Origin: Floccifex porci
Lineage (GTDB): Bacteria; Bacillota_I; Bacilli_A; Erysipelotrichales; Erysipelotrichaceae
Direction of reading: 5' to 3'
Assembly (NCBI RefSeq): GCF_009696175.1
Contig: NZ_VUMM01000001.1
Location: forward strand, 124,001-188,000
DNA length: 64,000 nt
A program made the position numbers and the translations under genes. Below are positions 22,547 through 26,841 of this stretch, piece by piece. Numbering within the stretch: position 1 is the stretch's first letter; every line of letters starts with the position of its first letter. The notes under the pieces are model-generated. The model saw only the letters and a program-made list of their open reading frames with translations, was not told where the DNA came from and did no database searches.

Positions 22547-22560
22547 TACTGTTTTTTTTT
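22527..22560. terminator. Terminator between the YgjP-like gene and aroF
   Basis: AAAACAGTATC-TAGTGT-GATACTGTTTT followed by a T run; usable in both directions. Confidence 0.85.
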
Positions 22561-23572
22561 ACATTTCTCGACCAATTACTTTTGCGATCTGTTTTCCTTT
22601 TTCGACCAGTTGAGCATATCGTTTTGGTTTCAAACTCTGTGAACCATCGCTCCATGCATTACATGGATCATCATGCACCTCTATAATTAAACCATCTGCT
22701 CCAGCTGCAATGGAAGCCAAAGATAAAGCTTCAATCAGTTTATAATCACCAGCAGCATGACTTGGATCAATGATGATTGGTAAATGCGTTCTTTCCTTGA
22801 TGATTGGGATTACGGCAAGATCCAGAGTATTTCTTGTATATTTTTCAAATGTACGAATTCCACGTTCACAGAAAATCACATTTGGATTTCCTTCTGACAT
22901 AATATATTCAGCTGCCATGATCCATTCTTCAATCGTATTTGCTAAACCACGTTTTAATAATACAGGTTTTTTGGTTTTACCAACGGCTTTTAATAAATCA
23001 AAATTCTGCATGTTTCGAGCACCAATCTGTATGATATCTACATTTTCTACAAATTCTTCTAAATGTTCAATTGCCATTAATTCCGATACAATTGGTAGAC
23101 CTGTTTCATGACGTGCATTGACCATAGCTAAAATACCAGCTGTACCCATTCCCTGGAATGCATAAGGAGAAGTTCTTGGCTTATAAGCACCACCTCTTAA
23201 CATATCAGCACCTGCTTCTTTTACTTCTTTTGCGATACGGCTGATCTGATCTTGTCCTTCAACGGAACAAGGACCTGCAATCATAACGATCTTTTTTCCA
23301 CCAATCTCAATGCCATTTACATTTACAATGGTATCTTCTGGATGAAACATGCGATTGGCAAGTTTGTATGGTTGAGAAACTCGCTGAATGTCTGTAATAA
23401 TTGGATTAGCCAGCAAATTCTTTTCATCCAGTTTTGAAGTATCTCCTACCAGACCGAATACATTATAGTTTTCTCCTAAAATTAAATGAACCTGTACACC
23501 CTGTAATTCAAGCTTTTGAATTAATAGATCAATATCCTGTTTTTTTGCTTCTTTTTTAACTGTAATAATCAT
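22559..23572 (-). CDS. aroF: 3-deoxy-7-phosphoheptulonate (DAHP) synthase, type I-beta with regulatory N-terminus
   Basis: First committed step of aromatic synthesis: PEP plus erythrose-4-phosphate gives DAHP. Residues 1 to about 70 form the ferredoxin-like (FDE) domain that in Thermotoga-type enzymes binds Tyr/Phe for feedback inhibition. The TIM-barrel core shows MIAGPCSVEG, RGGAYKPRTSPYAFQG, GARNMQNFDLL, KRGLANTIEEW, CERGIRTFE and IDPSHAAGDY. 337 aa. It is the second gene of the operon that begins with the Phe/Tyr leader, 14 bp after the AroE-like/AroK fusion gene, so regulation is probably both allosteric and by attenuation. Confidence 0.95.
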   Translation of the reverse strand: MIITVKKEAKKQDIDLLIQKLELQGVQVHLILGENYNVFGLVGDTSKLDEKNLLANPIITDIQRVSQPYKLANRMFHPEDTIVNVNGIEIGGKKIVMIAGPCSVEGQDQISRIAKEVKEAGADMLRGGAYKPRTSPYAFQGMGTAGILAMVNARHETGLPIVSELMAIEHLEEFVENVDIIQIGARNMQNFDLLKAVGKTKKPVLLKRGLANTIEEWIMAAEYIMSEGNPNVIFCERGIRTFEKYTRNTLDLAVIPIIKERTHLPIIIDPSHAAGDYKLIEALSLASIAAGADGLIIEVHDDPCNAWSDGSQSLKPKRYAQLVEKGKQIAKVIGREM

Positions 23573-23586
23573 AATATACCTTCTTT

Positions 23587-24813
23587 CTATACACTTTTTT
23601 TATTTTTTACAATTCTATTCAATTCACAAATGATTTTTTCTACTGTATCTTCAATTTTATCGTTGTTCTTTACAGTAATATCTGCATATTTCTGATAAAT
23701 AGGAAATCTTTCTTCATACAGCTTTTTAACAGCTTCCTGTGAAGAAGATAAAGGCCGATTGGGATCATATGTGACCAGTTTATCCAGATCACGATCAATA
23801 AAAATGACAACACCATTTAATTTTAATAAATCGATATTAATTTTATTTTTAATGGTTCCTCCACCTGTACCAATGATTTTCTGGTTTAGAACGGATAATT
23901 TTAAAGCAGTCATAGTTTCCAGTTTGCGAAAGCCAGCTTCGCCACTTCGTTTGAATATTTCTGGAATACTGGTATGCGTATCCTGAACAATGATTTCATC
24001 CATATCAATAAAAGATTTATGCAGTTTTGTTTCCAGCAGTTTACCAATTGTGGTTTTACCTGCACTTGGCATACCGATTAATACAATATTCAGTTGATTT
24101 ATATAGTAGGTATCCAGTACAGACTGAAACAACTTTTCCTGAATGGATGCCCCCTTTATCTTTTCAGTGGCAAATTTAATTTTTGCGATTTTTAATTCGA
24201 TACCCGTAATTGTTTGAATGCCAGACTGCAAAGCATCCTGTGCAATTTTAGAAATAAGAGGATCATAGACATAATCAATCAATAATTCACATTTTAAGAA
24301 TAAATGAATGTCTATTGGAATGGAATCAATATCTGGATTCATTCCAGTAAGACCTGTGTGTATGACAATCTGACTGTCAAGATGCCTGGCATAACATTCT
24401 GTATAAGAAATTGAGTCTGCATCTGGATTTTGATCCACTATATAAATTTCTTTTACATTTAAATCTTCTAATGCAGGAAGAATTGATTTTGAAATCCAGT
24501 TATTTCCAATAATCAATACTTTCTTATCTTTAAGATCGATTGCATGTCTATTGATGCAATACATAAATGCATCATAATCACTATTAAAACCATAAGATAA
24601 TTCATTTTTAAAAATAATTGTATCTACTACATTGGATCTTTTACTGTTTTCACTAGGTACATCAATGCGTTCACAATTATTTTCATTTGGAAAATCTATA
24701 TAAATTCCATTAAAATCTAAAGATTTAATATAAGAATTTATTCTTTTACAGGACAGATCAAATTCATTAAAGATCTGTTCTGAAATTTCATTTCCAATTA
24801 AACCTGTTTTCAT
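23587..24813 (-). CDS. aroK: Shikimate kinase fused to a degenerate shikimate-dehydrogenase-like domain
   Basis: The C-terminal half (from about residue 238) is a complete shikimate kinase: LNIVLIGMPSAGKTT (P-loop), FIDMDEII, FRKLE, GTGGGT and lid Arg in DPNRPLSSS. The N-terminal half resembles AroE but has lost the substrate serines (the GHSYS-type motif is absent), the catalytic Lys (PNE where PYK is expected) and the glycine-rich NADP loop (LIIGNNWISKS); NSDYDAF keeps the Asp. It likely only phosphorylates shikimate, while the AroE half may be structural or regulatory. 408 aa. AAGGAGGG upstream of the ATG; preceded by a leader-peptide attenuator. Confidence 0.9.
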   Translation of the reverse strand: MKTGLIGNEISEQIFNEFDLSCKRINSYIKSLDFNGIYIDFPNENNCERIDVPSENSKRSNVVDTIIFKNELSYGFNSDYDAFMYCINRHAIDLKDKKVLIIGNNWISKSILPALEDLNVKEIYIVDQNPDADSISYTECYARHLDSQIVIHTGLTGMNPDIDSIPIDIHLFLKCELLIDYVYDPLISKIAQDALQSGIQTITGIELKIAKIKFATEKIKGASIQEKLFQSVLDTYYINQLNIVLIGMPSAGKTTIGKLLETKLHKSFIDMDEIIVQDTHTSIPEIFKRSGEAGFRKLETMTALKLSVLNQKIIGTGGGTIKNKINIDLLKLNGVVIFIDRDLDKLVTYDPNRPLSSSQEAVKKLYEERFPIYQKYADITVKNNDKIEDTVEKIICELNRIVKNKKSV

Positions 24814-24827
24814 ACTCCCTCCTTATG

Positions 24828-24861
24828 AAAAAAAGCGTTAACAATATGAAGTTAACGCTTT
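24828..24861 (-). terminator. Attenuator terminator of the aroK-aroF operon
   Basis: Minus strand AAAGCGTTAAC, 8-nt loop, GTTAACGCTTT running into a seven-T tract, ending about 4 nt before the aroK SD. A terminator between promoter and first gene implies conditional read-through. The upstream run UUUUUCAAAG overlaps its left arm and could pair with CUUGGGAAA just after the leader stop codon, a candidate antiterminator. Confidence 0.82.
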
Positions 24862-24866
24862 GAAAA

Positions 24867-24895
24867 ACCTTGAAATATAAATTATTTCCCAAGGT
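24867..24895 (-). promoter_or_regulatory. Leader hairpin next to the leader-peptide stop codon
   Basis: ACCTTG / CAAGGT plus AAATA / TATTT with a two-base bulge. Its 5' arm starts at the last base region of the leader ORF stop codon, where a terminating ribosome would cover it. Likely the pause/anti-antiterminator element of an attenuator; pairing alternatives have not been computed. Confidence 0.6.
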
Positions 24896-24939
24896 CATTT
24901 GCTATAAAAATAAAAATAAGAATTCGCAAATTGTTTCAT
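24895..24939 (-). CDS. Phe/Tyr-rich leader peptide of the aroK-aroF operon (14 aa)
   Basis: Encodes MKQFANSYFYFYSK followed by TGA. Six of fourteen residues are Phe or Tyr and five of them are consecutive (YFYFY), the hallmark of a ribosome-stalling leader peptide that senses aminoacyl-tRNA supply. It begins exactly 7 nt after a TATAAT -10 box, so the RNA would start with the AUG (no SD). It precedes a hairpin and an intrinsic terminator ahead of genes for shikimate kinase and DAHP synthase. Inferred mechanism: low charged tRNA-Phe/Tyr stalls the ribosome, favours antitermination and switches on aromatic synthesis. Confidence 0.8.
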   Translation of the reverse strand: MKQFANSYFYFYSK

Positions 24940-24945
24940 GTAAAA

Positions 24946-24974
24946 ATTATAAATGAAAAAGAAAATATTTTCAA
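24946..24974 (-). promoter_or_regulatory. Promoter of the aro leader/aroK-aroF operon
   Basis: TTGAAA (24969-24974), 17-bp spacer, TATAAT (24946-24951) on the minus strand: near-consensus sigma-A promoter. The -35 box is overlapped by the palindrome GAAAATATTTTC. Confidence 0.82.
24960..24973. promoter_or_regulatory. Candidate aro operator, copy 1
   Basis: AGAAAATATTTTCA on the plus strand: the core GAAAATATTTTC is a perfect palindrome and overlaps the -35 box of the aroK-aroF promoter. It lies between divergent aroK and aroD promoters and matches two sites upstream of aroE. Confidence 0.5.
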
Positions 24975-25805: not shown

Positions 25806-25836
25806 AAACAGGACCTGGATTTACCAGGTCTTATTT
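25806..25836. terminator. Terminator between aroD and aroE
   Basis: GACCTGG-ATTTA-CCAGGTC hairpin with T-rich flanks in both directions; overlaps the aroE stop codon. Confidence 0.8.
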
Positions 25837-26841
25837 GTTGAACTGATTGACTTTTAACTTGAATTCGCAAATGATTTCATCTGCATTTTTAGACTGGATA
25901 ATAAAACCGTTGCGAGATAATGTTTTTTTATCCTGAGAAGAAGACAGTAATACTTTATTTGAAGAAATAGCTTGTTCTTCATAATTTTCTGAATCTAAAA
26001 CAATACATTCTTTTTTTAATTCTCTGGCAACCTGTAAAGCTGTATCCATGTTTACATCAACTAAAACAACATTAGAAGTTTCAAATAAGATTTCTCGATA
26101 AATTCGATCAATTTGTTTATCTTCAATCTCAATATTTTTGAAAAATTCCAATGCACGTTTCGCTTGTCCAACCAGCATTTCCAATCCTGTTACAGCAACC
26201 TTGATTCCTCTTTCTTTAGCCTGTAAAGTGAATTCAGTATCCTGAGGATTGTATATACAGTCAAACACAGCTTCACATTTTTTGAATTTTGATAGATCCA
26301 CTGCAATACCATGTACTTTTGGATACATACCCATAGGAGTTGTATTGATGATAATATTCACATCCGTATGGTTTTTATAAGCTTCTTCAATGGAAATTAC
26401 ATTATCTTTTAAAAGCAGATCGGTAATAATCATTTCACAGGCACCCAAATCATGAACGACTGCCTGAATGGCCTGGCTGGCTCCCCCATTTCCTAATACA
26501 AGAATTTTCTTTCCTTTCAGGGAAATACCATGTGTTTCTACCATATAGCGAAAACCATAATAATCGGTATTATAACCATACAGTTTACCATTTCTGTTCA
26601 CAATTGTATTAACAGCTCCAATTTTTCTGGCTGCCTGATCCATTTCTTCCAGATAAGGGATGACTGCCTGTTTATAAGGGATGGTAACATTGATGGCTTT
26701 AAATTCTCTTTTTTTCATAAAAGAATCTAAATCTTCTTTTGAAACTTCTTGTATTTCATATGTATAATTGTCTAATAGTTTTTCTTGTATTAATTTAGAA
26801 TAAGAATGACCTAAATGTTCTCCGATTAATCCGTATTCCAT
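25831..26841 (-). CDS. aroE: Shikimate dehydrogenase with a decayed shikimate-kinase-like C-terminal extension
   Basis: Residues 1 to about 260 form an intact AroE: GEHLGHSYS (substrate Ser), NVTIPYKQ (catalytic Lys), NTDYYGF (Asp), LVLGNGGASQA (NADP loop), NTTPMGMYP and TGLEMLVGQA. The last ~75 residues are not part of AroE. They align by eye with the AroK half of the neighbouring fusion (SNVVLVDVNMDTAL against LNIVLIGMPSAGKTT; ADEIICEFK against VEKIICELN) but the P-loop is destroyed and the middle is missing. 336 aa. AGGAGG precedes the ATG; a longer upstream reading frame lacks an SD. Confidence 0.93.
   Translation of the reverse strand: MEYGLIGEHLGHSYSKLIQEKLLDNYTYEIQEVSKEDLDSFMKKREFKAINVTIPYKQAVIPYLEEMDQAARKIGAVNTIVNRNGKLYGYNTDYYGFRYMVETHGISLKGKKILVLGNGGASQAIQAVVHDLGACEMIITDLLLKDNVISIEEAYKNHTDVNIIINTTPMGMYPKVHGIAVDLSKFKKCEAVFDCIYNPQDTEFTLQAKERGIKVAVTGLEMLVGQAKRALEFFKNIEIEDKQIDRIYREILFETSNVVLVDVNMDTALQVARELKKECIVLDSENYEEQAISSNKVLLSSSQDKKTLSRNGFIIQSKNADEIICEFKLKVNQFNK

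Follow-up and report, generated by a model that had tools for sequence, protein, structure and literature searches.

In the pheA and trp leaders of Escherichia coli, control codons, a hairpin and an intrinsic terminator are combined with a Shine-Dalgarno (SD) sequence and an antiterminator formed by strands 2 and 3. Leader-peptide attenuators of the his operon have been described in Erysipelotrichales, Peptostreptococcaceae and the B. cereus group (PMC9413887), a His leader is found upstream of hisS/hisZ in bacilli (PMC2965389), and, among published candidates, the one closest to the element considered here is the uORFC-13-1 motif, which lies upstream of aroF in Acholeplasma (PMC8632094). A preliminary description of this DNA had treated leader-peptide attenuation as unusual in Firmicutes, which, in light of these three reports, is less so than was claimed. 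In Corynebacterium glutamicum, the aroF gene is preceded by a leader peptide with Phe-Tyr-Phe (PMC4046766), the ilvBNC leader peptide is made, according to Morbach et al. 2000 (cited in PMC4046766), although its ORF has no ribosome binding site, and the ilvBNC attenuator has three hairpins, including an antiterminator (PMC11857589). Among Firmicutes genomes, a minority have been reported to contain leaderless genes, chiefly those of Lactobacillales and Mycoplasma (PMC3160421). Our literature search, which covered few subscription journals, found no paper on Phe/Tyr leaders in Erysipelotrichaceae.

Here, we analyze a putative attenuator in a 64,000-nucleotide stretch of the Floccifex porci genome (the window, meaning the whole of the DNA analyzed). 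Apart from the antiterminator discussed below, the elements noted at the locus are confirmed, and they are arranged in the following order along the minus strand.

24969..24974, minus strand: -35 box TTGAAA, from promoter scoring
24946..24951, minus strand: -10 box TATAAT, after a 17-nt spacer, with the ATG 6 nt further on
24895..24939, minus strand: leader ORF MKQFANSYFYFYSK and stop, without an SD and probably leaderless; this kind of ORF is conserved in 30 of 36 relatives
24866..24896, minus strand: hairpin A (strands 1:2), beginning within the TGA stop, from folding and covariation
24832..24861, minus strand: intrinsic terminator B (strands 3:4), 11-bp stem, loop of 8, U tail to 24828
24818..24824, minus strand: SD AAGGAGG of the first structural gene, read from the sequence; gene ATG at 24813
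23587..24813, minus strand: degenerate shikimate-dehydrogenase-like domain fused to shikimate kinase (PF01202 at residues 250-397)
22559..23572, minus strand: DAHP synthase gene aroF, encoding the first pathway enzyme (PF00793 and PF18152)

The promoter, TTGAAA-N17-TATAAT at 24974-24946, scores 11 of 12 consensus matches on the minus strand. A distance of 7 nt from the -10 box to the ORF had been reported; the gap is indeed short, but we count 6 nt, the A of the ATG (position 24939) being the seventh base. Codons 8-12 of the ORF read Tyr-Phe-Tyr-Phe-Tyr, and the 5' side of hairpin A, which the preliminary description placed at the stop codon, begins inside its TGA; the 3' end of this hairpin enters a UUUUU run at 24863-24867. 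The terminator just before the SD was also recovered: a terminator scan gave one match with 11 pairs at 24861-24832 versus 0.0 expected in shuffles. Folding of the 112-nt leader yields -27.6 kcal/mol (z = -5.0 versus dinucleotide shuffles).

The first structural gene had been called aroK; it does encode a shikimate kinase domain, but as a fusion with the degenerate dehydrogenase-like domain. Two shikimate-dehydrogenase/kinase fusion copies lie in the window, both on the minus strand: in the copy at 23587-24813, the kinase part is good and the dehydrogenase part is poor (top dehydrogenase match 64 bits), and the copy at 25831-26841 has a good dehydrogenase (184 bits) and a kinase that is not recognizable. 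The two seem to have decayed in complementary fashion, and two relatives (G003 and G004) also carry two full-length fusion copies. The separate aroB-aroC operon of F. porci has an ordinary promoter and an upstream region without an aromatic leader; thus, of the two operons checked, the DAHP synthase operon alone is placed under a leader.

The Tyr-Phe-Tyr-Phe-Tyr run had been judged far from chance, a claim that stands only when the relatives are taken into account. Of the 359 upstream regions scanned in the F. porci genome, 15 contain an ATG ORF with at least four aromatic residues in five codons, and four of these 15 regions, the present locus among them, also hold a terminator. With a background of about 1% in its own genome, the single locus is by itself only suggestive, and it is the conservation among relatives that is decisive over chance. 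Relatives were located by protein search, and the region upstream of the first operon gene, either the kinase fusion or aroB, was inspected. A short Phe/Tyr-rich ORF precedes the operon in 30 of the 36 evaluable relatives, nearly always accompanied by a hairpin and a terminator. Relatives that keep the operon and have no detectable leader, which the preliminary description had named as evidence against it, do occur (6 of 36: G013, G017, G023, G035, G040 and G051) and count against the attenuator reading.

The 36 tabulated leaders contain 95 Tyr and 90 Phe (185 in all) and no Trp among 512 residues. Examples of the leader peptides are MKILSNSYFYFFN, MHTTTYETFYFYFR, MNNSRQYYYYFK and MIKHTNVTYFYFYFR, together with MKNLISVSYFMFTFK in Faecalicoccus pleomorphus. 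Residue positions vary and Tyr and Phe interchange freely, so that composition alone is conserved; a final Arg or Lys is frequent. Some genomes have a pair of such leaders, each on its own operon (L008 and L106 in G046, L009 and L056 in G024, L016 and L107 in G053), and a Phe/Tyr leader is also present in one genome from another family of the class (leader L042 of G114). In a neighboring family of the same order, no comparable leader was found at the DAHP synthase genes. A strict leaderless-leader pattern matched the window and 8 further sites in 5 other genomes among 296 genomes of the class, a count too strict to inform since the pattern demands TAG after the aromatic run and a fixed spacing.

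No convincing leader for another amino acid was found in the 397 kb of the F. porci genome covered by our scans. T-boxes had been said to be used elsewhere in the window, and they do precede leuS, tyrS and ileS. In the whole genome there are 21 T-box matches (16 above the cut-off), mostly upstream of tRNA synthetase, Leu, Met and transporter genes. None of these 21 matches to the T-box covariance model (RF00230) falls at the leader locus, where the Rfam amino-acid leader families (Phe, Trp, His and others) likewise gave no relevant match at E <= 5.

The spacing between promoter and start codon bears on how the leader would be translated. Over the 36 leaders, the gap from the -10 box to the ATG is 6 nt in 12, 7 nt in one, 10 nt in one and at least 17 nt in 22, most of the last group having an SD-like stretch. 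A gap of 6 nt puts the A of the ATG at the usual transcription start position. The window's genus and its sister genus form one wholly leaderless clade (7 rows, 100/100 support), and other parts of the tree hold leaderless leaders too, forcing at least three changes. Among 363 genes of the F. porci genome, promoter-like sites before the ATG peak at gaps of 6 and 7 (13 sites), are almost absent at 8-17 and form a second broad hump at 18-31. This peak suggests that leaderless mRNAs are probably in general use in F. porci. Together with the 13 of 36 leaders whose gap is 6-7 nt, it makes leaderless initiation of the window's leader ORF, already proposed in the preliminary description, likely.

Pairing was tested by comparing the binding energies of each species' own strand pairs (matched) with those of strands mixed from different species (mismatched); a MAFFT alignment misplaced the hairpins and was left out of the covariation analysis. 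The window and 20 other leaders make up class I. Hairpin A covaries in class I (p = 0.001) and within the window's clade (p = 0.001), as does terminator B (p = 0.001 and 0.003, respectively). Compensatory pairing across relatives, a check that the preliminary description had recommended together with the search for conserved aromatic codons, is therefore found for both hairpins. They are the only class I helices that clearly pass, and no third helix covaries.

Two defining parts of a ribosome-mediated attenuator are accordingly in place at this locus, namely an ORF with codons for the end products between the promoter and the first gene, and a covarying intrinsic terminator between that ORF and the gene. 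The aromatic richness of the leaders makes Phe/Tyr leader-peptide attenuation well supported. The earlier proposal that a Phe/Tyr leader peptide controls aroK-aroF transcription fits conserved aromatic codons without Trp, a hairpin and terminator, and the appropriate genes downstream. We propose, with a probability of about 0.83 and on sequence evidence, that the element is a Phe/Tyr-sensing leader-peptide attenuator of the kinase-DAHP synthase operon with leaderless ribosome loading. Transcription would start at the leader AUG or at most 2 bases from it, and a ribosome would load on essentially leaderless RNA. If the ORF is translated, the speed through Tyr-Phe-Tyr-Phe-Tyr would be set by charged tRNA-Tyr and tRNA-Phe, and this speed would in turn set how often RNA polymerase passes the terminator, stalling leading to antitermination. 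As for the coupling, our leading guess is that the base of hairpin A is masked while the ribosome sits on the final aromatic codons or the stop; with its own U-run in the window's clade, this hairpin may resemble a first terminator.

The alternative that survives best, a possible though doubtful one, takes this resemblance literally. Hairpin A and its U5 tail would be the regulated terminator, with its base covered by the ribosome, and B would be a second, partly leaky one. The start of A inside the stop codon speaks for such direct occlusion, as does the U-rich run that follows A in L001, L003, L005, L006 and L013, but terminator B would still have to be passed. Since the U-run is missing after A in most relatives whose leaders are SD-led, occlusion could be at most specific to the clade and not the general mechanism.

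A classical switch of the trp/pheA type, in which strand 2 or strand 1 is released by ribosome stalling and then pairs with the 5' arm of the terminator, has the right order of parts in its favor, as well as weak 2:3 hairpins (-5 to -8 kcal/mol) in several relatives and the helices of a sister class described below. We nevertheless regard it as unlikely here. In the window, folding of the 2:3 stretch yields no more than -1.2 kcal/mol (z near 0). Neither the 2:3 antiterminator nor the one suggested in the preliminary description, CUUGGGAAA with UUUUUCAAAG (strands 1:3), showed better binding energies for matched than for mismatched strands (p between 0.49 and 0.93); for the latter, p was 0.49 in the window's clade and 0.93 over all of class I. 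A scan of strand combinations in class I, which took in pairing of the leader codons with other strands and loop-loop pairing, gave weak, uncorrected signals at most (p = 0.025 for 0early:4 and p = 0.03 for 1:3). When the ribosome footprint is removed from the fold, terminator B still forms. Because the matched/mismatched test is blind to pairing between invariant bases, class I may hold a weak kinetic antiterminator that it cannot detect. As no antiterminator is supported, the locus is filed as a variant working like a ribosome-mediated leader-peptide attenuator.

The full switch is found instead in class II, comprising 7 relatives with a leader before aroB (L036, L037, L039, L043, L045, L049 and L051). 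Here, strand 3 has three competing partners, namely strand 0, which consists of the last leader codons, strand 2, and the loop or 5' arm of the terminator, in mutually exclusive helices 0:3 (p = 0.001), 2:3 (p = 0.0002) and 3:4 (p = 0.0004); these strands were delimited by eye, which may favor the fit. A helix mutually exclusive with the terminator is thus present in class II and is not found in the window's class. The class II architecture also includes a short GGGC:GCCC hairpin, and the class II leaders belong to no Rfam family among those scanned. Their helices fit a sensing of ribosome position. A ribosome stalled on the aromatic codons would cover strand 0 only, allowing 1:2 and 3:4 to form and thereby blocking the terminator, and a ribosome at the stop would cover strand 1 as well, allowing 2:3 to form and leaving the terminator free. 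The design of pheA/trp leaders, which the preliminary description had ascribed to this locus, is therefore shown for class II and, with its antiterminator unsupported, not for the locus itself.

Two further readings are far less probable. A nascent peptide that arrests the ribosome upon binding free Phe or Tyr, as in TnaC, instead of a response to tRNA charging, would suit an aromatic run that ends near the C-terminus and the frequent final Arg or Lys, but against it stands the conservation of composition and not of residue positions, with Tyr and Phe varying freely. That the ORF is untranslated, and the U-rich stretch and two hairpins form a constitutive terminator, gains some color from the ease with which U-rich sequence yields Phe and Tyr codons (as in the 15 upstream regions above), but is very improbable given that 30 of 36 relatives, though diverged in sequence, keep the start, the frame, the stop and the aromatic run, and that many relatives place SD-like motifs for exactly this ORF.

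Phe/Tyr-sensing attenuation, if it operates as proposed, adds most of the Erysipelotrichaceae examined, which are common gut bacteria, to the organisms whose shikimate pathway is under leader-peptide control, and does so in F. porci in a genome where many amino acid genes otherwise depend on T-boxes. One family with leaderless and SD-led leaders, and with two-hairpin and multi-helix attenuators, all on the same pathway, offers a natural series. This series bears on how an attenuator may switch without a classical antiterminator, and on how a ribosome on leaderless RNA keeps pace with RNA polymerase. A tentative extension, to which we give rather low odds, is that one lineage of Bacillota uses a leaderless attenuator without an antiterminator, in which a 70S ribosome loaded on a bare 5' AUG would, from a position at the Phe/Tyr run or immediately past it, directly mask the hairpin that starts within the stop codon, its sisters being SD-led or multi-helix.

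How, then, does the locus compare with the systems already described? With the E. coli pheA and trp leaders it shares control codons, a hairpin and a terminator, but their SD and 2:3 antiterminator are unsupported here. The his attenuators likewise represent leader-peptide attenuation in the same bacterial order; they use His codons on the his operon with proposed antiterminators, and the word "leaderless" is absent from the paper (PMC9413887). The uORFC-13-1 motif, from another low-GC Gram-positive lineage, likewise precedes DAHP synthase and shares a candidate upstream ORF with one or more Phe codons, followed by a hairpin and intrinsic terminator (PMC8632094). Compared by its description, that motif has a ribosome binding site, at least one Phe and a position directly before aroF, whereas the window leader has both Tyr and Phe, no ribosome binding site, and the kinase fusion next with aroF second, and so falls outside it. 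C. glutamicum offers an aromatic leader before the DAHP synthase gene aroF and, in the ilvBNC case as cited from Morbach et al., a leader lacking a ribosome binding site, but it belongs to Actinobacteria, an unrelated lineage, and its ilvBNC attenuator has an antiterminator (PMC11857589). Leader-peptide attenuation itself is thus already known, and two traits look like variations on it, namely the missing antiterminator and, within Bacillota, a Phe/Tyr leader that is leaderless in form.
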